From Spirochaetota bacterium (lineage in GTDB: Bacteria; Spirochaetota; UBA4802; UBA5550): 56,571 nucleotides of DNA. The stretch is taken from the NCBI GenBank assembly GCA_003246895.1, contig QKCL01000082.1:1-56571 (forward strand). Direction: 5' to 3'. Positions 25,470-38,364 of the stretch are shown here, one piece after another. Position 1 is the stretch's first letter. Each line of letters opens with the position of its first letter. The notes under the pieces are model-generated. The model was not told where the DNA came from, ran no database searches, and worked only from the letters and a program-made list of their open reading frames with translations. The position numbers and the translations under genes were made by a program.

Positions 25470-28400
25470 ATGTCTAATAAAACTATGAAGTCAATGGACG
25501 GTAATATGGCTGCGGCCCACGTAGCCTATGCTTTTACTGAAGTTACCGCCATTTATCCAATTACACCTTCTTCGCCGATGGCTGAGCATGTTGATGAATG
25601 GGCATCTCATGGCAAAAAGAATATATTTGGAAATGTAGTTAAAGTTGCAGAATTACAGTCGGAAGCAGGTGCATCCGGTGCTGTACACGGGTCACTTCAG
25701 GGTGGAGCCCTGACAACGACTTTTACAGCATCTCAGGGACTTCTTCTGATGATTCCTAATATGTACAAGATAGCCGGGGAGCTGCTTCCTGGAGTTTTCC
25801 ATGTTTCTGCAAGAAGCCTTGCTGCACAGGCGCTTTCCATTTTTGGAGATCACGCTGATATCTATGCAGCCAGGCAGACCGGATTTGCAATGCTTGCCAG
25901 CGGCAGTGTTCAGGAGGTTATGGACCTTGGAAGTATCGCGCACCTTGCGGCAATAAAAAGCCGAGTGCCTTTTATGCATTTCTTTGACGGATTCAGAACA
26001 TCCCATGAAATACAGAAAGTTGAAGTCATAGACTATGACGATCTGAAAGGTCTTATTGATTATGATGCTGTTGTGAGATTCAGAAAGAATGCCCTTAATC
26101 CGGAACATCCTGTAACAAGGGGAACTGCACAGAATCCTGATATATACTTCCAGGCAAGAGAAGCTGCAAATCCTTTCTATAACAGCCTCGATGACACAGT
26201 AGCTGATTATATGAAGGAGATCAGTAAAATTACCGGCAGAGACTACAAGCCCTTTGTTTATTACGGAGCTCCTGACGCAGAAAATATAATCATTGCCATG
26301 GGATCTGTTACAGATACAATCAAGGAAGTAGTTGATTACCTGAATGCAAAGGGAGAAAAGGTCGGTCTTGTCTGTGTACACCTGTACAGGCCATTCTCCG
26401 CTAAATATCTACTTAATGTGGTTCCGTCGTCCGTTAAACGTATAGCCGTACTTGACAGAACAAAGGAGCCGGGCGCAAATGGCGAGCCTCTCTATCTTGA
26501 TATCAGAGATGTATATTATGGAAAAGAAAATGCTCCACTCATTGTTGGGGGCAGGTACGGTCTTTCTTCAAAAGACACAATTCCTTCTATGATTGCATCA
26601 GTATATGATAATCTTAAACTTCCTGAACCAAAGAACAGATTTACAGTCGGTATCGTCGATGATGTGACCTTTACATCCCTTCCAGTTGGGGAGACTCTTG
26701 ATGTTGCCCCGGCAGGTACAATCCAGGCTAAATTCTTTGGAATTGGTTCCGACGGAACTGTCGGTGCGAATAAAAACTCCATAAAGATTATCGGAGACAC
26801 TACTGATCTTTACGCACAGGCTTACTTTGCCTATGATTCCAAGAAATCCGGCGGTGTTACTGTATCACATTTGAGATTTGGTAAGGAGCCCATAAGGTCT
26901 ACCTACCTGATTACAAAACCTGATTTTGTAGCATGCCACGTTCCTGCATATCTTGACAGCTACGATATCCTAAAGGGACTGAAAAAGAATGGAACTTTCC
27001 TTCTTAACAGTATGTGGTCACCTGAGGAGACTGTTGAAAGAGTGCCTGATAATATCAAGAAGTACCTGGCAGATAATGAAATTAAGTTTTACATGATAAA
27101 TGCCTACGAAATTGCTGACAAAATTGGACTTGGAAACAGGACAAATACAATTATGCAGTCTGCATTCTTTAAACTTGCCAATGTTATTCCATATGAAGAT
27201 GCTGTCCGTGAGATGAAGAGTGCTATTAAAAAGTCATACGGAAGCAAGGGTGATGATATTGTAAAAATGAATAATGCCGCTGTTGACAGTGGTGCTGACG
27301 GTCTGGTTGAAATTCCGGTTCCTGCTGAATGGAAGAACCTTTCTGCAGATTCGAGAAAAAAACGTGAAGGTGTCCCTGAATTCGTCCGTGATATAGCAGA
27401 TCCGATCAATAACCTCGATGGTGATCTCCTGCCTGTAAGCGCCTTTGTTGGCAGGGAAGATGGAACATTTCCATCCGGAACAACAGCCTATGAGAAGAGA
27501 GGGGTTGCGGTAAACGTTCCAGAGTGGATTCCTGAAAACTGTATACAGTGTAACCAGTGTGCTTATGTATGTCCTCATGCGGTTATCAGACCATTTCTAC
27601 TTGATGAGAAAGAAGCTGCATCTGTTCCTGCAGGAACAAAACTTGTAGAGGCAAAAGGTAAAGGTCTTGAGGGGCTGAAGTTTAAGATACAGGTAAGTCC
27701 TCTTGACTGTACAGGATGCGGTAACTGTGCGGATGTATGTCCTGCAAAAACAAAAGCTCTTGAAATGAAGCCGCTTGACAGTCAGATGGAAGAAAAAGAG
27801 AGATGGGACTATATGCACGGAAATGTGACATATAAAGATACATTCATGGCTAAAAATACCGTTAAGGGAAGCCAGTTTGCTCAGCCTCTGTTCGAATTTT
27901 CCGGAGCCTGCGGCGGTTGCGGGGAGACTCCGTATATAAAACTCATTACACAGCTTTTTGGAGACAGAATGGTTGTTGCCAATGCAACAGGCTGTTCGTC
28001 AATATACGGCGGTTCTGCTCCTTCTACTCCTTACTGTACAAATGCAGCCGGACATGGACCAGCATGGGCGAATTCGCTTTTTGAAGATAATGCTGAGTAC
28101 GGTTTCGGTATTCATCTCGGTATAGAACAGATGAAAAACAGACTGAAGGAGCTTGTAGCACAATATGAGGCAAGCGGAAGTTCATCTGAAATCAAAGCTC
28201 TTCTTTCTGAATGGACAGCTAATACAGAGGATGTAGAAAAAACAAAAGATGTTACAGCAAAAGTTGTTCCTCTCCTTGAAAAGGATGGGTCAGATATTGC
28301 AAAGGAAATCCTTGTTCTGAAACAGTATCTCATTAAAAAATCTGTATGGATTTTTGGCGGAGATGGATGGGCATACGATATCGGTTATGGCGGTCTTGAC

Positions 28401-28988
28401 CATGTTGCTGCAATGGGAGAAGATGTTAATATTCTTGTAATGGATACTGAGGTTTATTCAAATACAGGCGGTCAGGCATCCAAGGCTACCCCGACAGCAG
28501 CTATCGCAAAATTTGCGGCGTCTGGAAAGAAAATACGTAAAAAAGATCTTGGTATGATGATGATGTCATACGGCTATGTATATGTTGCCCAGGTTGCCAT
28601 GGGATCAAATCAGGCTCAATATCTTAAGGCTCTGCAGGAGGCTGAAGCTTATCCAGGACCATCTGTGATTATCGCATACGCCCCTTGTATAAATCACGGG
28701 CTTCGTGCCGGAATGGGTAAAACCCAGAATGAAGCAAAGCTCGCAGTAGAATGCGGATACTGGCAGCTCTACAGATATAATCCTCTTCTGGAAAAAGAGG
28801 GCAAGAATCCGTTTATCCTTGATTCCAAGACTCCAGATTACAATAAGTTCCAGGATTTTCTGAAAGGAGAGGTAAGATACACTTCGCTTCTGAAGGAATT
28901 CCCTGAAAATGCTGGTGAGCTCTTTAAGGCTGCAGAGGATAATTCCAAGTGGAGATTTGAGAAGTATAAAAAACTTTCTGAAATGTAA
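25470..28988 (+). CDS. nifJ: Pyruvate:ferredoxin (flavodoxin) oxidoreductase
   Basis: Single-chain enzyme of 1172 residues converting pyruvate and CoA to acetyl-CoA, CO2 and reduced ferredoxin; a core step of anaerobic energy metabolism. Domains in order: pyrimidine-binding TPP domain (AVAYAFTEVTAIYPITPSSPMAEHVDEW region), CoA/transketolase-C-like domain, gamma domain, the double [4Fe-4S] ferredoxin domain with CIQCNQCAYVCP (about residue 690) and CTGCGNCADVCP (about residue 745), and the C-terminal TPP-Mg domain with GGDGWAYDIGYGGLDH (about residue 963). A further CGGCGE near residue 814 begins the proximal cluster site. All key cysteines are present. Strong AAGGAG ribosome site; followed by a terminator. 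Confidence 0.97.
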   Translation: MSNKTMKSMDGNMAAAHVAYAFTEVTAIYPITPSSPMAEHVDEWASHGKKNIFGNVVKVAELQSEAGASGAVHGSLQGGALTTTFTASQGLLLMIPNMYKIAGELLPGVFHVSARSLAAQALSIFGDHADIYAARQTGFAMLASGSVQEVMDLGSIAHLAAIKSRVPFMHFFDGFRTSHEIQKVEVIDYDDLKGLIDYDAVVRFRKNALNPEHPVTRGTAQNPDIYFQAREAANPFYNSLDDTVADYMKEISKITGRDYKPFVYYGAPDAENIIIAMGSVTDTIKEVVDYLNAKGEKVGLVCVHLYRPFSAKYLLNVVPSSVKRIAVLDRTKEPGANGEPLYLDIRDVYYGKENAPLIVGGRYGLSSKDTIPSMIASVYDNLKLPEPKNRFTVGIVDDVTFTSLPVGETLDVAPAGTIQAKFFGIGSDGTVGANKNSIKIIGDTTDLYAQAYFAYDSKKSGGVTVSHLRFGKEPIRSTYLITKPDFVACHVPAYLDSYDILKGLKKNGTFLLNSMWSPEETVERVPDNIKKYLADNEIKFYMINAYEIADKIGLGNRTNTIMQSAFFKLANVIPYEDAVREMKSAIKKSYGSKGDDIVKMNNAAVDSGADGLVEIPVPAEWKNLSADSRKKREGVPEFVRDIADPINNLDGDLLPVSAFVGREDGTFPSGTTAYEKRGVAVNVPEWIPENCIQCNQCAYVCPHAVIRPFLLDEKEAASVPAGTKLVEAKGKGLEGLKFKIQVSPLDCTGCGNCADVCPAKTKALEMKPLDSQMEEKERWDYMHGNVTYKDTFMAKNTVKGSQFAQPLFEFSGACGGCGETPYIKLITQLFGDRMVVANATGCSSIYGGSAPSTPYCTNAAGHGPAWANSLFEDNAEYGFGIHLGIEQMKNRLKELVAQYEASGSSSEIKALLSEWTANTEDVEKTKDVTAKVVPLLEKDGSDIAKEILVLKQYLIKKSVWIFGGDGWAYDIGYGGLDHVAAMGEDVNILVMDTEVYSNTGGQASKATPTAAIAKFAASGKKIRKKDLGMMMMSYGYVYVAQVAMGSNQAQYLKALQEAEAYPGPSVIIAYAPCINHGLRAGMGKTQNEAKLAVECGYWQLYRYNPLLEKEGKNPFILDSKTPDYNKFQDFLKGEVRYTSLLKEFPENAGELFKAAEDNSKWRFEKYKKLSEM

Positions 28989-29006: not shown

Positions 29007-29043
29007 AAAAAAGCTGCCTCAAATGAATGGGGCAGCTTTTTTT
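29007..29043 (+). terminator. Bidirectional terminator between nifJ and the structured RNA
   Basis: AAAAAAGCTGCC (29007-29018) pairs perfectly with GGCAGCTTTTTT (29031-29042), with a 12-base loop. A T-run follows on the plus strand for nifJ and, from the A-run, on the minus strand for the RNA candidate that converges on it. Confidence 0.85.
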
Positions 29044-29216
29044 ATACCCGTAGGTGCCGTGTAGTCAGGGGTTTTGAGACCTGTTACCAGGTGGGTTCCC
29101 GCATGCATTATCCGGCCTCCTCTGTTAAGAGTATGGCCTTTAAGTACAAATATTGGGATCCCTTAATTCTCTTAGGTTCAAAACGCGTCAGGACTAATCG
29201 CGAACACCACAGGTAA
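29042..29216 (-). ncRNA. ssrS: Structured non-coding RNA, candidate 6S RNA
   Basis: About 175 bases without a reading frame that fold into one long rod. The ends pair (TACC at 29045-29048 with GGTA at 29212-29215; GGTG at 29052-29055 with CACC at 29206-29209), then AGTC with GACT and GTTTTGAGACC with GGTTCAAAAC, then an internal loop, then GGGTTCCC with GGGATCCC, and an apical hairpin GGCC..CTCT-GTTA-AGAG..GGCC. Rod shape, central bubble and length fit 6S RNA, which binds RNA polymerase. Read on the minus strand it has GTTCGC near the 5' end and GGCACC near the 3' end as in 6S, a promoter at its 5' side and the shared terminator at its 3' side. The family call is an inference; the absence of GGAAGGAAGC excludes SRP RNA. 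Confidence 0.5.
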
Positions 29217-29219
29217 TGT

Positions 29220-30134: not shown

Positions 30135-31280
30135 GTGGTGGAGAAAAGAACAAGTTTTAATAAATTAACCCGTCTTTTTGTTTTATTTTCTGTTTCACTT
30201 GTACTTATTCTTAGTTCTGTTAACGCCAGGGCTGAAAACAATAAGGATGTAATCCTTGTTCTTGATACTTCAATGAGTATGATAGGCTATGGCGGCAAAA
30301 ATATCATGCCTGATGTTAAGGACAGCATAAACAAGTATGTTGACGGTTTAAAAGACGGAGATAGAGTTACGTTTATCACCTTTGATAAAGATGTGAAAGT
30401 CTTTCCAACCGTTCTCATTGATGATAAAAATGACAGGGATATCGTAAAGAAATATATTTCGGTAACCGAGGCGAAAGGTGAATGGACCTTTACAATGAAA
30501 ATGCTTAATCAGGTTTTTTCTCTGGCAGACAAGATTTCAAAGGAGAACGGCACCAGTAGAAATCTTGTAATTCTTATAATGACAGACGCACTTGATGATC
30601 CTCCGCCCGGTAAAAGAAAAGACAAGTTTAATCTGAAAAATATTGCAGACCAGTATAGCGGAAAGGACTGGTGGATATATCTGGTAAATCTCGCTAATCT
30701 TAAGGAATCATCAAAGTTGAGGCAGGCTCAGGAAAAACTCAAGGGTGAGCTTTCAAAGATAAGTGAAAATTCCCAAATTGTGGATGGAAGTGATCCATAT
30801 AAGGCAATTAATGAAAAAATTCAGCCTGATATAGCAAAGAAGGAGAGGGTTCAATTTATAATCTTTATTCTTCTGGCATTGGCCGCAGTTCTTGGATGTC
30901 TGCTGGTTCTATTCCTGGTTATAAAGAGAATCAAATCTGTGAAACTTGTCGGCGTTCTTGAATTCTGGAATCATGAGCTTCTCAAACCTGAGGTTGGAGT
31001 TGCACACCTTGAGAGATACAATGCAGGTATGATTATTGTTGGAAGGGTGCCAGGTTGTCAGCTTAAAATAAGGGAATATGAATCACGTATACCATTTACT
31101 TTAAAAGCGTCAAGGATAAATGGTGAGGTGAAAGTTCAGTTACTGGTTCCGGAGGGATTGAATTCCCATTTTAAGAACAAGGAAGCAGGCAATACCCTTG
31201 AAAATGGAGATATTTTCCAGGTTGAAAACTACAGCTTTAGATATTTGGCTGAAAATTTATCTGAAGATAAGAATTTATAA
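30135..31280 (+). CDS. vWA-domain membrane protein with a cytoplasmic FHA-like domain
   Basis: A 381-residue protein. A signal peptide (cleavage after ARA, about residue 33) leads to a von Willebrand A domain (about 37-230) with an intact MIDAS metal site: D44-T-S46-M-S48, Thr118 and Asp151. One membrane helix spans about 241-263. The last 110 residues look like an FHA domain (VGRVPGCQLKI, then NTLENGDIFQVENYSFRY), placed in the cytoplasm by the topology. In T. pallidum the vWA protein TP0750 lies near cfpA, as I recall. GTG start; AAAGGGGAAAG upstream. A TTGACA at 30077-30082 may belong to its promoter, without a clear -10. It may connect periplasmic ligand binding to the cytoplasmic filament. 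Confidence 0.75.
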   Translation: MVEKRTSFNKLTRLFVLFSVSLVLILSSVNARAENNKDVILVLDTSMSMIGYGGKNIMPDVKDSINKYVDGLKDGDRVTFITFDKDVKVFPTVLIDDKNDRDIVKKYISVTEAKGEWTFTMKMLNQVFSLADKISKENGTSRNLVILIMTDALDDPPPGKRKDKFNLKNIADQYSGKDWWIYLVNLANLKESSKLRQAQEKLKGELSKISENSQIVDGSDPYKAINEKIQPDIAKKERVQFIIFILLALAAVLGCLLVLFLVIKRIKSVKLVGVLEFWNHELLKPEVGVAHLERYNAGMIIVGRVPGCQLKIREYESRIPFTLKASRINGEVKVQLLVPEGLNSHFKNKEAGNTLENGDIFQVENYSFRYLAENLSEDKNL

Positions 31281-31447: not shown

Positions 31448-33430
31448 ATGTCTATAGGTCAATTCCCCAAAAGCCCTAATAAGGTTCACCCTACAGTCCC
31501 AAGTGCGGTTGGTTCGAGGGAATCAATTGTTCAGGAGGGAAGGGATAAAGTTGCTGAGGCTGACCTTATTCTGAATGAAACTTATGATAAAGTTCTGAAT
31601 CACATTCAGACTAAACTCCCAGAGGAAGTTCTTAAGGAACTTGATGTTATGGGTGGCTTAAAAGAGAAGTTATATAATTACATCAACCAGACATATGTAA
31701 ATATGTTTAACAGATATACTGTTACAATGGAAGATGAATTTCTGAAAAAAGTCAGAGACTTTGTAGACAAGGAAGAGGCCAAGGGTTTGGCAAGGTATAC
31801 ACCGAAAGAGATTGTTGAAATTCTCGATAAAGTAGGTGGTGCTGATAAATTCCACACTGGTGAAATTGAAAAATCCATCGTAAACATGTATGGTCACCTT
31901 CAGGGACATATTCAAAGGGGAGTAAACGACCTCGAAGTTGAGACTAACTCAATATTAAGACAAAAAACTGATGTAGGGGCATTCGTACGAGGTGAAAATG
32001 CCTATGCGATCCTTAAATGTGTCTTCAAGGATAATGAATTAAGACCAAAATATGTATATGATGTAAAGCTATCGATCAATATTCTTGAAAGTGAGCTCAT
32101 TAGTCCAATGTATCACTATCAGGTTACTGTTGAATCAATCATGAAAGATACAATACAGAAACATATTCAGGACCTTATTGAAAAGCAGGTTGAAAAGTTT
32201 AACGACGAACTTGTTGATCAGGGTAAAAATGAATTAAATGCAAGCGAAAAGATGTTTGAAAAAGTGAAAAGAATTGAAAATTTCACTGATGATGAGAAGG
32301 AAGATGAAAAGTCAAAAAGATATACAATTCTTGCTAAAAAATTCCTCGATAAAATTGAGGGACTCAGAGCAGAAATTGATGTAGAGGATATGGATCCTCT
32401 TAATGTTCGGGAAAACATCAAGTACATAATTGATGAGGAGAATATCAGAAACAGGGGTTATAACACATGTATTAACTCTATCACTTCAATTCTCGATACA
32501 AGTAAACTCGGTTATCAGGTATGTGATAACATGAAGAATGCAAGGATTTGCAGAATCAGTGAGTATGAAGAAACTGACAAAATGATTCTACCAGATGAAA
32601 GATATACAATAAGAATGGCGTATTATGATCAGAATCAGCTAAAAGAGTCTAAAAAAGAGTATGACAAGCAGGTAGCCGCATTTACAACAGAGATTGGTAT
32701 GGCTTGGGATGTAGTACATGCTCATTATGAATCCAAAAAAAGGTTCAGGTCATTACAGGATTTTGAAGACCTGAGTGCAAGACTTATGAACAAAGAGTGG
32801 AAGAGGCAGAAGAAGGATTATGACACCGATCCTGATAATGTACTCTGGAATGAAATTGGTGAAATGTATATTGAATCAACATTCGTTGAAAAAAATAACA
32901 GAACGTATGAAGACAGATATAAAAACCTTAAGGGAAAACTTACTTATCTTAAAGATAAACTTGCTAAAATGCACGGTTATCAGAACCCTGTTGAGAGAGT
33001 TATTCTTGATGAAAGACTAAGTTTCCTTGAAAAGAGGTTTAACGAGTTTACACATCTTGTTAACCCGCATCATATTCAGCCTGGACTGGTTCTTGATATT
33101 GACATTACAACAATAAAGAGAAAGCAGTATATACTGAAGAGTATGGCAAATGTCCTTAATGAGTTCCTTTACAGTGTATCTAAAGGATTCGCAGATGCTG
33201 CCTTTGCTACATATTCAAGAAGAAGATCTACAGTCAGGGATGATATTTCACAATCATTCGGAGAAGAAGAGATTGGAGAAGATCTTTTTGAAACTGCTTA
33301 CAGATCTGATTCAGGGTCTAATATTGACCTTACTGCTTCTCCTGAAATTTCAGGACAGGTTCAGCTTTCTCCAGATGTTTCTTCAAGAAAATCTAAAAGG
33401 AAAAGTTCCGGCGGTCTGAAAGAACTTTAA
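31448..33430 (+). CDS. cfpA: Cytoplasmic filament protein A
   Basis: A 660-residue, highly charged, mostly helical protein that I recognise as spirochaetal CfpA, the subunit of the ribbon of cytoplasmic filaments that lies under the inner membrane along the flagella. Recognisable stretches include NMYGHLQGHIQRGVNDLE, RQKTDVGAFVRGENAYA and DPLNVRENIKYIIDEENIRN. Length agrees with the treponemal protein (about 680). No signal peptide or membrane helix. The last 60 residues are low-complexity and Ser/Arg/Lys-rich. A consensus ribosome site, a strong promoter and an immediate terminator indicate high, single-gene expression. Recognition is from memory of the family. Confidence 0.75.
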   Translation: MSIGQFPKSPNKVHPTVPSAVGSRESIVQEGRDKVAEADLILNETYDKVLNHIQTKLPEEVLKELDVMGGLKEKLYNYINQTYVNMFNRYTVTMEDEFLKKVRDFVDKEEAKGLARYTPKEIVEILDKVGGADKFHTGEIEKSIVNMYGHLQGHIQRGVNDLEVETNSILRQKTDVGAFVRGENAYAILKCVFKDNELRPKYVYDVKLSINILESELISPMYHYQVTVESIMKDTIQKHIQDLIEKQVEKFNDELVDQGKNELNASEKMFEKVKRIENFTDDEKEDEKSKRYTILAKKFLDKIEGLRAEIDVEDMDPLNVRENIKYIIDEENIRNRGYNTCINSITSILDTSKLGYQVCDNMKNARICRISEYEETDKMILPDERYTIRMAYYDQNQLKESKKEYDKQVAAFTTEIGMAWDVVHAHYESKKRFRSLQDFEDLSARLMNKEWKRQKKDYDTDPDNVLWNEIGEMYIESTFVEKNNRTYEDRYKNLKGKLTYLKDKLAKMHGYQNPVERVILDERLSFLEKRFNEFTHLVNPHHIQPGLVLDIDITTIKRKQYILKSMANVLNEFLYSVSKGFADAAFATYSRRRSTVRDDISQSFGEEEIGEDLFETAYRSDSGSNIDLTASPEISGQVQLSPDVSSRKSKRKSSGGLKEL

Positions 33431-33450: not shown

Positions 33451-33487
33451 AAAAAAAGGAGGATTTTCAATCCTCCTTTTTTTTTAT
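33451..33487 (+). terminator. Terminator of cfpA
   Basis: AAAGGAGGATT (33455-33465) and AATCCTCCTTT pair perfectly around a TTC loop, flanked by an A-run and a long T-run. It ends 82 bases before the next gene, which therefore needs its own promoter. Confidence 0.9.
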
Positions 33488-33568: not shown

Positions 33569-34486
33569 ATGGAAACTACATATTTTTCACTAGGTTCAAA
33601 GGCTGCATTTAATAAAGCCTTACGTCATTTTTTTAAAGTTAATGAGGCGGTAGAGGAAGTTGATTCACGTGTAAATATTGCAGATTATATTAACGAGTTA
33701 ATAGATGATGAAGAGATACACCAGGATCAGATTTTGCCGATTATAGGTTCTGTAATCAGGGATAAGTTTGCATACAGCAACAGATCAATAAATATCCCTT
33801 CTAATATAACGAATTTTGATAAAATAATAAATGAAACAGTTAAGTGGACTGCATTGGATATCGTTGCGGTATATTTTACACCTGATGGGCATAGATCGGT
33901 AATTAATCCCAAGGGCCTTGACAGCTGGGAACGTGTCCGTGAGTTATCTGCAGACCAGCTTATTGTGCTCTATGTTAAAGATCTAAAAGAGGATGACAAG
34001 AGTGTTGAGACTGAAGCAATTAAGACTCTTGAAGATCTGATTTTTGGAAAAGATGTCTTCAGCAATAAAAAATTCGTTGATAATACTGTTGCAGAAAAAC
34101 CAAAAGATGTTGTTGCTCAGGAAAAGGTTGTTGCTTCGCAACCGGTGAAGAAAAAGAGAAATATAACACCAAAATATGGAGTTCAGGTTTCAAATGAGTT
34201 GTTTCACAATGGAAATGTTGAAGCCTGGAAAAAAATTGTGGAAAGCTACCATACTAAATATCCGGAACTTGAAGTTCATATTATGTTTGAAGGTGAAGTG
34301 ATAAATGATATAAACTCATTGTTTAAATGGGGAAAAGTTAAGCACGGAGATACCATCTTTTTTCAGGTATCAGGAGAGAATATTTTAGGGGTTTCAAAGC
34401 TTCAAAAGTACCTTTATGAAGGGGCAAGTCCAAGATTTGAGCAGTTCTTAAAGCTTGGTGTTGGTAGAGTTCTAAATCTTTTCTAA
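33569..34486 (+). CDS. Unknown protein with a C-terminal HPr-like domain
   Basis: A 305-residue protein. Residues 1-150 form an unrecognised domain (INELIDDEEIHQDQILPIIG), 160-198 a linker, and about 199-284 align with HPr, the PTS phosphocarrier: YGVQVSNELFHNGNVEAW in place of the GLHxRPA strand and helix, then LEVHIMFEGEVINDINSLFK and HGDTIFFQVSGE, matching the SLF and GDxIxxxxxGE positions. His213 falls on the phosphorylated histidine; the Arg-Pro that follow it in HPr are replaced by Gly-Asn, so phosphorylation is uncertain. It lies between cfpA and the PPDK-like gene, 28 bases before the latter, so a partner relation is likely. In T. pallidum TP0747 has this position, as I recall. Confidence 0.6.
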   Translation: METTYFSLGSKAAFNKALRHFFKVNEAVEEVDSRVNIADYINELIDDEEIHQDQILPIIGSVIRDKFAYSNRSINIPSNITNFDKIINETVKWTALDIVAVYFTPDGHRSVINPKGLDSWERVRELSADQLIVLYVKDLKEDDKSVETEAIKTLEDLIFGKDVFSNKKFVDNTVAEKPKDVVAQEKVVASQPVKKKRNITPKYGVQVSNELFHNGNVEAWKKIVESYHTKYPELEVHIMFEGEVINDINSLFKWGKVKHGDTIFFQVSGENILGVSKLQKYLYEGASPRFEQFLKLGVGRVLNLF

Positions 34487-34514
34487 AAATAATTAATGAT
34501 AGAGGTTGAGGTAT

Positions 34515-37115
34515 ATGGATAATATAATATTTTTTAATGATAAACTGAATAATATTGATGAAATAGACAGTTCAAAAATTGGAATTCGTGGCAGAAGGGC
34601 TGTAGAACTAGCCGGTATGGCTTTGCCTATAGTTCCCGGTTTTATTATAGATTCAGAGCTGACAAAAAATTTAAGTCAGGTAAATATAAAAGACAGAATT
34701 CAGACTTATATTTCACAGATTGAAAAGGACATGAATAAACAATTCGGTGATACAAAGAAACCATTAATGCTGAAGGTTGTTTTGAGCTCTGATTTAAATG
34801 TTCCTTTTTTCCCATCAATACATAATATTGGGATGAATGATGAAACAGTTGAAGGATTCGCCCAGTTTACGAATAGTTCTTTTGCATATGGTGAATATCT
34901 TTATTTAATGAGAAATATCTCCACCAAGCTTTTTGATTTTACAGATGAGGACATTCAGAAAGTTGAAGGAAAACTTCCCAAAAAACCTACTGTCGAACAA
35001 TATAAAAAGGCAATTGATACGTATAAGAAAAGTTTTGGCGAAGAGTATGGTGATGATGTATATGATCAGCTTATCTTTGTTATAAAAAAAGCAGCAGAAA
35101 AATATTGTGATTCCGAGATAGACGTTGATAACACTCTTTCAATTATGATACAGTCAATGGTTTATGGTAATTTTGGAGATAATTCATATTCAGGGAGTTA
35201 TTATACAAGAAACATTGTAACAGGTGATAGAGAGATTCAGGGTGATTTCCTTAAAAATGAGTTTGATTTTACCAGCGGAAAGGTTCAGGAGATTAAAAAG
35301 ATAAATAAAGATTATTATGAAAAATTTTCTGAAATAGCCTGCAAAGTTGAGGAAAATTTTAAAGAGATCAGAAATATTAAATTCACCATAGAAGAAGGTG
35401 ATTTCTGGCTGGTGGAGCAGAGAGAAGTTGATGAAAAATCAACTCAGGCTCAGATTAAAACACTTCTTGACCTGAATCAGTCCGGCATTGTGGCTGATGA
35501 TTTTCTGGTAAGCACCATTAAGCCAGGTCAGTTGAATGAACTCCTTCACCCTGTTATTGATCCAAGAACAGTAAAAAACATGAAGACAATAAAGGGTGGT
35601 ATATCCGGATCGACAGGTGCTGCAATCGGACGAGTGTTTTTCTCTACTCCTAAACTGCTTGAAGAATACAAAAAAGCTATAATGAAAGGACAGGATACTA
35701 ATCTTATTCTTGTTCTTAATGCATCCTATGCAGAGGATGTTAAGGCAATCGAAGTTGCCCAGGGTGTCGTTACAAATGAAGGAGGTTTCTCCTCCCATGC
35801 TCCTGTTGTAGCCAGAAGTCTTGGTAAAGTGGCAATGGTGCAACCGGAAATGAAAATAAAGGGGAACACTTTTACAATCGGTGGAAAAACTGTAAAAGAA
35901 GGTGATTATGTTTCAATAAATGTTCCATATTATGAAGAGCCGACTCTGTATCTCGGCAAGGTCGAGCTGATTCAGCCAGACTTTAATAAAAACGGGCTCA
36001 TTGATTTCCTTAAAATTGTAGAGAAATATATTGATGATTTTGATGTAAGGGCAAATGCAGATCAGGGAAGAGATGCAGATGTAGCAAATGAGTTTAAAGC
36101 AGCGGGTATTGGTTTATGCAGAACTGAGCATATGTTCTTTAATGAAAAACGGATCATGAAATTCCGTGAAATGATAATCGCAGAAAATGATAAAGAGAGA
36201 ATTAAGGTTCTTGAGGCCTTAAAGCCTATGCAGAGATCCGATTTCTATGATCTTTTTAAAGCTATGGCAGGGAAACCTGTTACCATCAGACTACTTGATG
36301 CTCCATTGCATGAGTTCCTTCCACGTTCAGAAGACGGGATGAAAGATTTTATCAAATATATGCAGACAAAGAAAAAGGGTGTTGTCGCAGGAGATATAAG
36401 GTCAAGATGTGAGGAACTTGAAGAGATGAACCCCATGCTGGGACACAGGGGTTGCCGTGTGGCTGTTACATATCCTGAGATTTATGAAATGCAGTGCCGT
36501 GCCATCTTTGAGGCAGCGTGCATGCTTCATAAAGAAGGAATAGAAGTTGAGCCCGAGATAATGATTCCTATAGTAATGAGTGAGCAGGAAATTAAGTTTA
36601 TCAAAAACGGTAAGAAAATTGAGGGTACTGTTGTTAAAGGGATAAGAGATATAAAAAATGAGGTACTTGAGGAATATGGAATTGATGATATCAACTACCA
36701 TGTTGGTACAATGATTGAATTGCCGGCAGCAGCTCTGTTGGCTGGATCAATTGCCGAGTATGCTGAATTCTTCAGTTTTGGTACAAATGACCTGACACAG
36801 ACTACATTTGGATTGTCAAGAGATGATTCCAACTCATTCTTCCCAGACTATTCACTTTTTGACCTTATGAAAAGTAACCCATTCAAGGTCCTTGGACAGC
36901 CTGTGAAAGAACTAATAGGTATTGCGTCAATGAGAGGTAAACTGACAAGACCTGATATAAAAATGGGACTTTGCGGTGAACATGGAGCTAATCCGGATAA
37001 TATTGCATTCTGCATTGATGCAGGATTAAATTATGTATCCTGTTCTCCGTTTTCAATCCCACTAGCAAAATTGGGAATTGCTCAGTATAAAATAGAAAAC
37101 AGCAAGGACGAATAA
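34515..37115 (+). CDS. Pyruvate,phosphate dikinase family protein with a degraded ATP-grasp half
   Basis: An 866-residue protein collinear with PPDK. Intact parts: phosphohistidine domain with His428 in GGFSSHAPVVAR; PEP/pyruvate barrel with GLCRTEHMFF, RLLDAPLHEFLP, NPMLGHRGCR, PEIMIPIVM, FFSFGTNDLTQTTFG and the catalytic Cys820 in GLCGEHG. Degraded parts: the GGKG lysine loop reads GIRG (residues 23-26), the VRSGAR block reads KVVLSSD, and the QGEDVVAG block after GDFL is missing. So it probably still forms phosphohistidine from PEP but may not use ATP and phosphate. Start at ATG 34515 with AGAGG at 34501-34505. Annotated as ppdK in T. pallidum (TP0746, from memory). A terminator follows. 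Confidence 0.8.
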   Translation: MDNIIFFNDKLNNIDEIDSSKIGIRGRRAVELAGMALPIVPGFIIDSELTKNLSQVNIKDRIQTYISQIEKDMNKQFGDTKKPLMLKVVLSSDLNVPFFPSIHNIGMNDETVEGFAQFTNSSFAYGEYLYLMRNISTKLFDFTDEDIQKVEGKLPKKPTVEQYKKAIDTYKKSFGEEYGDDVYDQLIFVIKKAAEKYCDSEIDVDNTLSIMIQSMVYGNFGDNSYSGSYYTRNIVTGDREIQGDFLKNEFDFTSGKVQEIKKINKDYYEKFSEIACKVEENFKEIRNIKFTIEEGDFWLVEQREVDEKSTQAQIKTLLDLNQSGIVADDFLVSTIKPGQLNELLHPVIDPRTVKNMKTIKGGISGSTGAAIGRVFFSTPKLLEEYKKAIMKGQDTNLILVLNASYAEDVKAIEVAQGVVTNEGGFSSHAPVVARSLGKVAMVQPEMKIKGNTFTIGGKTVKEGDYVSINVPYYEEPTLYLGKVELIQPDFNKNGLIDFLKIVEKYIDDFDVRANADQGRDADVANEFKAAGIGLCRTEHMFFNEKRIMKFREMIIAENDKERIKVLEALKPMQRSDFYDLFKAMAGKPVTIRLLDAPLHEFLPRSEDGMKDFIKYMQTKKKGVVAGDIRSRCEELEEMNPMLGHRGCRVAVTYPEIYEMQCRAIFEAACMLHKEGIEVEPEIMIPIVMSEQEIKFIKNGKKIEGTVVKGIRDIKNEVLEEYGIDDINYHVGTMIELPAAALLAGSIAEYAEFFSFGTNDLTQTTFGLSRDDSNSFFPDYSLFDLMKSNPFKVLGQPVKELIGIASMRGKLTRPDIKMGLCGEHGANPDNIAFCIDAGLNYVSCSPFSIPLAKLGIAQYKIENSKDE

Positions 37116-37130
37116 TCTATTTCTTATTAT

Positions 37131-37170
37131 AAACAAAAAAAAGAGTGCGCAATGCACTCTTTTTTTTGTT
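37131..37170. terminator. Bidirectional terminator between the PPDK-like gene and pgk
   Basis: GAGTGC (37143-37148) pairs with GCACTC (37154-37159); flanking A-run and T-run extend the stem to about 14 pairs (AAAAAAAA against TTTTTTTT). It serves both converging genes. Confidence 0.85.
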
Positions 37171-37182
37171 TATGTGTTATGT

Positions 37183-38364
37183 TTATTTTAGCGCTTCAAT
37201 TCCAGGCAACTGTTTTCCTTCAAGAAGTTCAAGAAAAGCACCCCCTCCAGTGGAAATATATGATATTTTATCCTCGACTCCAGCCTGATTTATCGCAGTG
37301 ACACTGTCTCCACCTCCAACAATGCTTAAGCAATCTGAATCGGAGAGTGCAAATGCAATCTGGTTCGTTCCGTTTGCAAAATTCGGCATCTCAAATGCTC
37401 CCATTGGGCCATTCCATATAATGGTTCTTGCTTTGCTGATTTTCTCTTTGAATAATTCAATGGATTTGGGGCCGATATCGAGTCCAATTGAGTTGTTTTC
37501 AATGGAACTGATGTCACATATTTCTGTTTTTGAATTATTATCAAATTCCTCCGCACATATAATGTCTACTGGCAACAGTATTTCAATTTTTTTGCTCTGT
37601 GCTTTGTCAAGAATTGATTTTGCTTCATCAAGCAGTTCAGTTTCAAGCAGAGAGTTTCCAACTTCATAACCCTGGGCTTTTAAAAAGGTGAAGGCCATGC
37701 CTCCTCCAATAATCATGAAATCGACCTTGTCTATAATATTTTGAAGAGCGTCGAGTTTGCTCGAAACTTTTGCCCCACCTATAATCGCTCCAAAGGGTCT
37801 TTCTGCGTTTTCAAGAGTCTTTTGACTATATTCGATTTCATTTTTAAGGAGAAAACCGGCACACTTAACATCAACATATTTTGTTACAGCCCAGTTCGAT
37901 GCATGGGCGCGGTGGGCAGTGGCGAAGGCATCATTTACATATACATCACAATGCGAAGCAATGAGTTTTCCGAAATCCAGATCGTTTTTCTCCTCTTCGG
38001 GATAAAATCTTATGTTTTCAAAGAGTACAATTTCTCTCTGTGACATTTTATTGGTTATATCTATAGTTTCTTTTCCAAGAGGTGTCTCTATGAAATTAAC
38101 AGGCTGTCCCATTATTTCGGAAAGTCTGCTTGCAACCGGTTTCAATGTCATTGTTTCATTTATCTTGCCTTTCGGCCTGCCCAGATGAGATATCAGTATT
38201 ATTTTGGCATCATTTTCAAGACAGTATTTTATCGTGTCAACGGTGGCCGTAATTCGTGTATCATCTGTAATATTGAGTTCCTTATCATATGGTACATTAT
38301 AATCGACCCTTATTAATACTCTTTTGTCTTTTACGCTTATCTCATTAAGATATTTAACAGCCAT
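37183..38364 (-). CDS. pgk: Phosphoglycerate kinase
   Basis: Glycolytic enzyme of 393 residues making ATP from 1,3-bisphosphoglycerate. N-terminal RVDYNVP, SHLGRPKG and ENIRFYPEE; the hinge GGAKVSSKLD; and the nucleotide-binding C-terminal part GPMGAFE, SIVGGGDSVTAI and STGGGAFLELLEG are all intact. It is the last gene of a three-gene minus-strand operon (MORN protein, tatC, pgk) with gaps of about 20 bases. Confidence 0.97.
   Translation of the reverse strand: MAVKYLNEISVKDKRVLIRVDYNVPYDKELNITDDTRITATVDTIKYCLENDAKIILISHLGRPKGKINETMTLKPVASRLSEIMGQPVNFIETPLGKETIDITNKMSQREIVLFENIRFYPEEEKNDLDFGKLIASHCDVYVNDAFATAHRAHASNWAVTKYVDVKCAGFLLKNEIEYSQKTLENAERPFGAIIGGAKVSSKLDALQNIIDKVDFMIIGGGMAFTFLKAQGYEVGNSLLETELLDEAKSILDKAQSKKIEILLPVDIICAEEFDNNSKTEICDISSIENNSIGLDIGPKSIELFKEKISKARTIIWNGPMGAFEMPNFANGTNQIAFALSDSDCLSIVGGGDSVTAINQAGVEDKISYISTGGGAFLELLEGKQLPGIEALK

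Follow-up and report, generated by a model that had tools for sequence, protein, structure and literature searches.

The histidine-phosphorylatable carrier protein HPr of the phosphotransferase system (PTS) folds as an open sandwich, with its elements in the order β-α-β-β-α-β-α. Its phosphorylated residue is His15, lying immediately before helix A and followed by Arg17 and Pro18. A dikinase-derived protein that has moved into signaling is VadK of M. tuberculosis (Rv1127c), reported to be a pyruvate phosphate dikinase (PPDK) without the phosphoenolpyruvate (PEP) domain that autophosphorylates from ATP and acts as a phospho-histidine regulatory kinase (PMC13400623). CfpA is the cytoplasmic filament protein of treponemes. 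In T. denticola, mutation of cfpA is reported to abolish the filaments and to lead to condensed chromosomes and to filamentation (PMC3398590). Among the open-licence papers searched, no report connects CfpA with PEP or with proteins of the HPr type.

We have analyzed a locus in which cfpA is followed by a gene for a 305-residue protein and then by a gene for a PPDK-like protein. The window, by which we mean the whole 56,571-nucleotide stretch of DNA that was analyzed, comes from a source genome of 3.57 Mb, and the loci nearest to it are in MAGs labelled Spirochaetes or Spirochaetia. The features are as follows, all on the + strand.

31448 to 33430, +: cfpA, cytoplasmic filament protein (NF040882, 903.7 bits, cut-off 500)
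33457 to 33485, +: terminator-like hairpin and T run between cfpA and the 305-residue gene, read off the sequence and absent from the list of the hairpin scan
33569 to 34486, +: tandem HPr-fold protein, 305 amino acids (open reading frame and translation)
33773 to 34051, +: predicted HPr-fold domain 1 (residues 69-161), with no histidine where HPr has His15 (VIA match to E. coli HPr)
34160 to 34429, +: predicted HPr-fold domain 2 (residues 198-287), to which the original prediction refers (own model and fold searches)
34193 to 34231, +: near-invariant loop NELFHNGNVEAWK (residues 209-221; 81-row alignment)
34205 to 34207, +: codon of His213, the proposed phosphate acceptor (H in 81 of 81 rows; helix A from 214)
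34319 to 34348, +: second near-invariant stretch, LFKWGKVKHG (residues 251-260; 81-row alignment)
34515 to 37115, +: PPDK-like protein, 866 amino acids, with an altered ATP-grasp site and intact phospho-histidine and PEP sites
35796 to 35798, +: codon of His428, equivalent to the catalytic His455 of C. symbiosum PPDK (alignment; H in 72 of the 72 rows holding the position)
36030 to 37088, +: PEP-binding domain of the PPDK-like protein (PF02896, 240.4 bits, cut-off 22.8)
37129 to 37173, +: strong terminator-like hairpin 3' of the PPDK-like gene (hairpin scan)

The domain first noticed, residues 199-284 of the 305-residue protein, is translated from positions 34163-34420. The ATG of the PPDK-like gene at 34515 lies 28 bases past the stop codon of the 305-residue gene, exactly the spacing previously given; this start is used here, while the program's list of open reading frames gives TTG at 34506. 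Because there are hairpins at 33457-33485 and after the PPDK-like gene, the 305-residue and PPDK-like genes probably form one unit and cfpA another. Immediately 5' of cfpA is a gene for a von Willebrand A-domain protein (30135-31280, +), for which strong matches at that place are found only in the loci of close relatives and weak ones elsewhere. Upstream of the module lies pyruvate:ferredoxin oxidoreductase (25470-28988, +), and between it and the filament region there is a match to 6S RNA (29041-29218, -; 65.3 bits, cut-off 46.4). Phosphoglycerate kinase (37183-38364, -) is convergent with the PPDK-like gene. With these two enzymes flanking it, the module is surrounded by abundant genes of PEP and pyruvate metabolism.

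The predicted models give the 305-residue protein a tandem pair of HPr folds, the clearer one without the histidine and the less clear one with it. The full-length protein was modeled in AlphaFold2 from 69 sequences (the window and 68 of 80 loci, the other 12 being truncated, near-duplicate or left out for some other reason), with a mean pLDDT of 88.6. The HPr family occupies VIA rows 1-33 for this model, matched at residues 66-164. Domain 1 superimposes on E. coli HPr with Z 11.1 and an rmsd of 1.7 over 79 of 83 residues, and unrelated rows begin at Z 6.2. This domain, the clearer of the two, lies outside the region of the original prediction and was missed there.

Residues 185-305 were modeled alone, with a mean pLDDT of 81.7. 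VIA rows 1-30 for this model are all HPr or Crh, with Z running from 8.1 down to 6.1 and the best row covering 78 of 84 residues with an rmsd of 2.1. Foldseek rows 1-29 are likewise all HPr or Crh, and no Foldseek E-value is 0.001 or below with either the full-length or the domain 2 model. The VIA scores show no gap, for the lowest HPr rows stand at Z 6.1 and unrelated folds start at Z 6.0, the nearest being aIF2 alpha (1yz7, Z 6.0; 2qn6_B, Z 5.9) and GlmM (3i3w_B, Z 6.0). The elements of the domain 2 model are strand 203-206, helix 214-230, strands 235-240 and 243-245, helix 250-253, strand 262-269 and helix 275-285, and both predicted domains have the open-sandwich fold of HPr. Residues about 199-284 had been proposed to follow the secondary structure and motif order of HPr, with a fold comparison suggested as the check. 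The secondary structure is borne out, with the HPr family in the top rows of both VIA and Foldseek and the isolated domain matching HPr structures before any other. As to motif order, the order of elements in the model agrees, but a shared order of motifs could not be shown by sequence.

The resemblance to HPr is one of fold only. The 305-residue protein has no match to PF00381 at E-values up to 10, and Pfam and NCBIfam return no HPr model for it, just weak matches to unrelated families. The sole PF00381 match in the source genome is a different gene, and the genome has an ordinary HPr and enzyme I (EI) elsewhere. Searching PDB sequences by phmmer and with the 69-row profile gave nothing credible. 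When residues 186-305 were aligned by hhalign with 30 spirochaete HPrs the probability was 1.6% with a score of 16.3, and 2 of 60 column-shuffled HPr profiles scored higher. Profile-profile comparison gave 10.4%, out of register, for domain 1 against HPr, and 0.55% for domain 1 against domain 2. Homology to HPr was thus sought by family models, phmmer, profile and hhalign, and all failed to show it. A paralog in the source genome was also sought, and the one match at E ≤ 0.001 was the protein itself.

Residues 213-216 are His213, N214, G215 and N216. Helix A of the domain 2 model begins at residue 214, so that His213 is the residue just before it, the place of His15 in HPr. All 81 rows of the alignment have His213, and all have Gly and Asn at the positions of HPr Arg17 and Pro18. 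Both the assignment of His213 to the phosphorylated histidine and the replacement of Arg17 and Pro18, as originally predicted, therefore stand, and the conservation in orthologs that had been named as a check is complete. Neither of the outcomes named as refuting the original prediction, no structural match to HPr or a variable His213, came about, and its reading of the domain as a phosphate carrier is partly supported. His213 is also present in 20 of 20 further loci, one of them from a 1.14-Mb genome, from a collection that overlaps that of the 81 rows and is not independent of it; one of the 21 rows of that alignment is an out-of-frame fragment (L154) whose other frame holds the motif. In this last locus (G204:C1; L154:6011-6957), from a complete genome, the tandem HPr gene lies in two frames with the motif in the second, either through a frameshift or an assembly error. 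The conservation extends well beyond the histidine. N209, E210, F212, N214 to E218, W220 and K221 are also invariant in the 81 rows, the same holds for L251, F252 and W254 to K258 in the second stretch, and the last 121 residues are gap-free across 69 sequences. Judged by these alignments, the phylum has the "altered" active site throughout, a point that the original prediction did not see. A histidine at the N-terminus of helix A is found in domain 2 and not in domain 1, where no row of 69 has one in columns 78-84. With no family model recognizing it, and Gly and Asn in place of the Arg17 and Pro18 that follow the histidine of HPr, the protein is not classifiable as an HPr; its mode of action may well be the same.

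The PPDK-like protein was aligned with the PPDK of C. symbiosum. It keeps H428 (H455 in C. symbiosum), R536 (R561), R592 (R617), E735 (E745), N758 (N768) and C820 (C831), and in the window the positions of K22, R92, D321 and E323 hold R, V, N and K, respectively. K22 is an ATP-binding residue, and so are R92, D321 and E323. Identity to PPDK rises from 31% in the ATP-grasp part (285 aligned positions) to 38% in the histidine part and 51% in the PEP part. The same division is seen in the 78 PPDK-like rows (77 of the 80 loci gave one, and at most 8 rows are gapped at any position, mostly at contig ends). All 78 have R at the K22 position. At that of R92 there are 74 V, 3 L and 1 A, and at that of E323 there are 39 R, 31 K, 2 T, 1 H and 5 gaps, with no E in any row. 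The D321 position varies, a single row (L046) retaining D. H455 is kept in 72 of the 72 rows holding the position, R561 in 70 of 71, R617, E745 and N768 in 70 of 70 and C831 in 69 of 70. As a control, all 14 canonical spirochaete PPDKs keep K22, R92, R135, D321 and E323, and 10 of the 14 share a genome with a PPDK-like gene. Q335 was also considered as a lost residue and dropped, since its partner shifts with the alignment (E301, or a register next to Q302).

The replaced residues are not proof of a dead ATP site, because the related enzyme RPH is reported to be inactive as Lys22Ala but active after loss of its Mg-binding glutamate in Glu297Ala (PMC4844700). The PPDK-like protein of the window scores 701.4 bits with TIGR01828 (PPDK), below the cut-off of 843.45, and 113.5 bits with TIGR01417 (EI), below the cut-off of 341.7; the N-terminal HPr-binding domain of EI is absent among its Pfam matches. 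We infer that it is a PPDK paralog that can probably still move phosphate between PEP and its own histidine, with the normal other half gone. One locus (L097) combines a damaged PEP site in the PPDK-like protein with an intact His213.

A 1003-residue protein of the source genome (L186:176-3187; G000:C10:43175-46183) has a PPDK-type ATP-grasp and phospho-histidine motif and no PEP domain, and is the mirror image of the PPDK-like protein. A split PPDK, with this protein as an ATP half served by the carrier, was considered and rejected; it occurs in just 7 of 392 genomes (E ≤ 1e-60), and cannot therefore be a general partner.

One genome of 1,139,633 bases in a single contig (G073) has its PPDK-like gene at 810737-813352. 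We take this genome to be T. pallidum and the gene to be TP0746, because the gene spans positions 810772 and 811414 at which a published report places variants in TP0746 (PMC10013896). The protein has R, V, E and R at the K22, R92, D321 and E323 positions with the histidine and PEP site intact, and its gene is the sole match in the genome at E ≤ 1e-100, two candidates having been scored. In the same report TP0746 is said most likely to make ATP from PEP, AMP and PPi (PMC10013896). The residues at the site argue against TP0746 being an ATP-forming PPDK and lead us to question that reading, so that an ATP-forming energy step at TP0746 may not exist in T. pallidum. The gene between TP0746 and TP0748 in this genome, which we take to be TP0747, encodes the tandem HPr protein. 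TP0747 is unnamed in the open-licence Treponema papers searched, a weak indication of absence.

The three genes are closely linked. Among 392 genomes of the phylum searched, the tandem gene is found in 134, cfpA in 136 and the PPDK-like gene in 133, with all three in 128 of the 140 genomes having any, and the tandem and PPDK-like genes together in 131 of the 136 having either. The count for the PPDK-like gene comprises 131 genomes at ≥665 bits and two partial matches beside the tandem gene (G212 and G287), from a search that scored two candidates per genome; one genome with a divergent neighbor (G061) is not counted. Many exceptions to the set of three are incomplete drafts, including one (G307) whose contig begins just upstream of the gene; another genome (G130), 93% complete, has cfpA alone. 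A PPDK-like frame lies ≤400 bases downstream of the tandem gene in 75 of 80 loci, and three of the other five have one ~5 kb downstream (L074, L075 and L117). cfpA lies ≤400 bases upstream in 73 of 80, or 74 counting a second copy in L097. In other loci, such as L067, the three frames almost touch. The original prediction had proposed a link between the carrier and the adjacent PPDK-like gene, and this is strengthened by the adjacency, by the co-occurrence and by a partner with replaced ATP-grasp residues that keeps its histidine and PEP sites. It did not see the third partner, the filament gene cfpA, and a filament module of three genes, coding for two predicted HPr folds and a PPDK with an altered ATP site as well as CfpA, goes beyond what it observed. 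The set of loci includes one from Alkalispirochaeta alkalica DSM 8900 (L079), a free-living spirochaete with the module. The three genes also turn up together under the labels Ca. Lambdaproteobacteria (contig of L097) and Deltaproteobacteria (contig of L066). In three genomes of about 1.8 Mb from one family (G069, G076 and G101; f32) all three genes are on different contigs, and the cluster appears dispersed.

We propose that the tandem HPr-fold protein and the PPDK-like protein form a PTS-like phosphorelay from PEP to His428 to His213 that acts on the cytoplasmic filament, and we put this at a little under an even chance. By analogy with the known chemistry of PPDK and the PTS, the PPDK-like enzyme would take phosphate from PEP onto His428. 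Because the ATP-grasp site is without key residues, the normal exchange of this phosphate with AMP and PPi would not take place. The swivelling histidine domain would then hand it to His213 of domain 2, a step suggested by the fold, the position of the histidine and the gene linkage. Domain 1, lacking a histidine, could serve in docking or sensing. Lastly, the gene order suggests that the filament or its anchors might read the state of the carrier, which would act on CfpA, or on a protein that binds or anchors CfpA, and so tie the filament to the PEP/pyruvate ratio.

Several observations count against the relay, namely the loss of Arg17 and Pro18, the locus (L097) that retains His213 despite a damaged PEP site, the hairpin that splits cfpA from the other two genes in the window, the invariance of the whole loop, the lack of sequence homology to HPr, the Foldseek E-values, all above 0.001, the missing VIA gap for domain 2, and the activity of RPH Glu297Ala. 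The first two also fit an explanation in which the HPr folds serve solely for binding. Domain 2 would then dock the PPDK-like protein or CfpA through NELFHNGNVEAWK and LFKWGKVKHG, with His213 making a contact or having a structural role and never being phosphorylated. The invariance of the entire loop and of a second surface stretch, rather than of His213 alone, fits a pure binding surface as well; domain 1 retains the fold without any histidine, and HPr itself has partners that it simply binds, as the titles of PDB entries with Rsd and glycogen phosphorylase among the VIA matches attest. Against this, the loop's single invariant histidine occupies the HPr position immediately ahead of helix A, and the protein's constant partner is an enzyme producing phospho-histidine from PEP. 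We think the binding role on its own unlikely, if a serious competitor. A still less probable view is that domain 2 is unrelated to HPr, being some other small α/β sandwich with the same order of elements in a protein that is a filament adaptor. There is no sequence homology to HPr, and aIF2 alpha and GlmM come directly behind the weaker HPr rows. But members of the HPr family take every one of the top 29 Foldseek and top 30 VIA rows, a second and clearer HPr fold is found in the same chain, and the invariant histidine is at the HPr position. This explanation we hold to be very improbable, the lowest of those considered.

The remaining alternative concerns the enzyme, which might still function as a dikinase although its nucleotide or phosphate site has changed, the 305-residue protein being its regulatory subunit and the link with the filament merely an old gene neighborhood. 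The ATP-grasp region does persist, K22 to R is a mild change, RPH is reported to tolerate mutation of its Mg-coordinating glutamate (PMC4844700), and TP0746 has been treated as an ATP-forming PPDK (PMC10013896). Yet R92 and E323 are replaced throughout while canonical PPDKs keep both, ten of these sharing a genome with a PPDK-like gene, and the score of the window protein falls well short of the TIGR01828 cut-off. We judge a working dikinase to be quite unlikely, and only slightly less so than an unrelated fold.

Returning to the phosphorelay, its fullest form would be a PEP-driven relay that controls an intermediate-filament-like cytoskeleton, with a PPDK whose ATP half has been abandoned as the enzyme I, a dedicated tandem carrier with a rebuilt loop, and CfpA as the target. 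That complete scheme is speculative, and clearly less probable than the relay as proposed above. If true, the cell would run this relay as a second PTS-like system alongside its ordinary EI and HPr; of the spirochaete genomes searched, about one third would have it, the genome assigned to T. pallidum among them, and HPr-type chemistry would take place on a protein missed by every sequence model used. CfpA filaments are known in treponemes, and a PEP-fed carrier encoded alongside is a candidate for their controller. The module suggests an unrecognized signaling line to the cell skeleton.

Compared with known systems, the locus resembles the PTS in several respects. Both predicted domains share the fold of HPr, Crh and NPr (PF00381), the histidine of domain 2 comes just before helix A, and a PEP-using phospho-histidine enzyme is the constant partner. 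It differs from PTS HPr in that the tandem protein has no sequence match to it, has an invariant Gly and Asn for Arg17 and Pro18 and carries two domains per chain. The PPDK-like protein has the domain order, catalytic histidine and all the tested PEP-site residues of pyruvate phosphate dikinase (TIGR01828), but its ATP-grasp residues are replaced and it falls below the family cut-off. In this it is the reverse of VadK, an ATP-using protein whose PEP domain is lost, whereas the PPDK-like protein keeps the PEP side and has the ATP side altered. And unlike VadK, the module described here has a dedicated partner with the predicted HPr fold.
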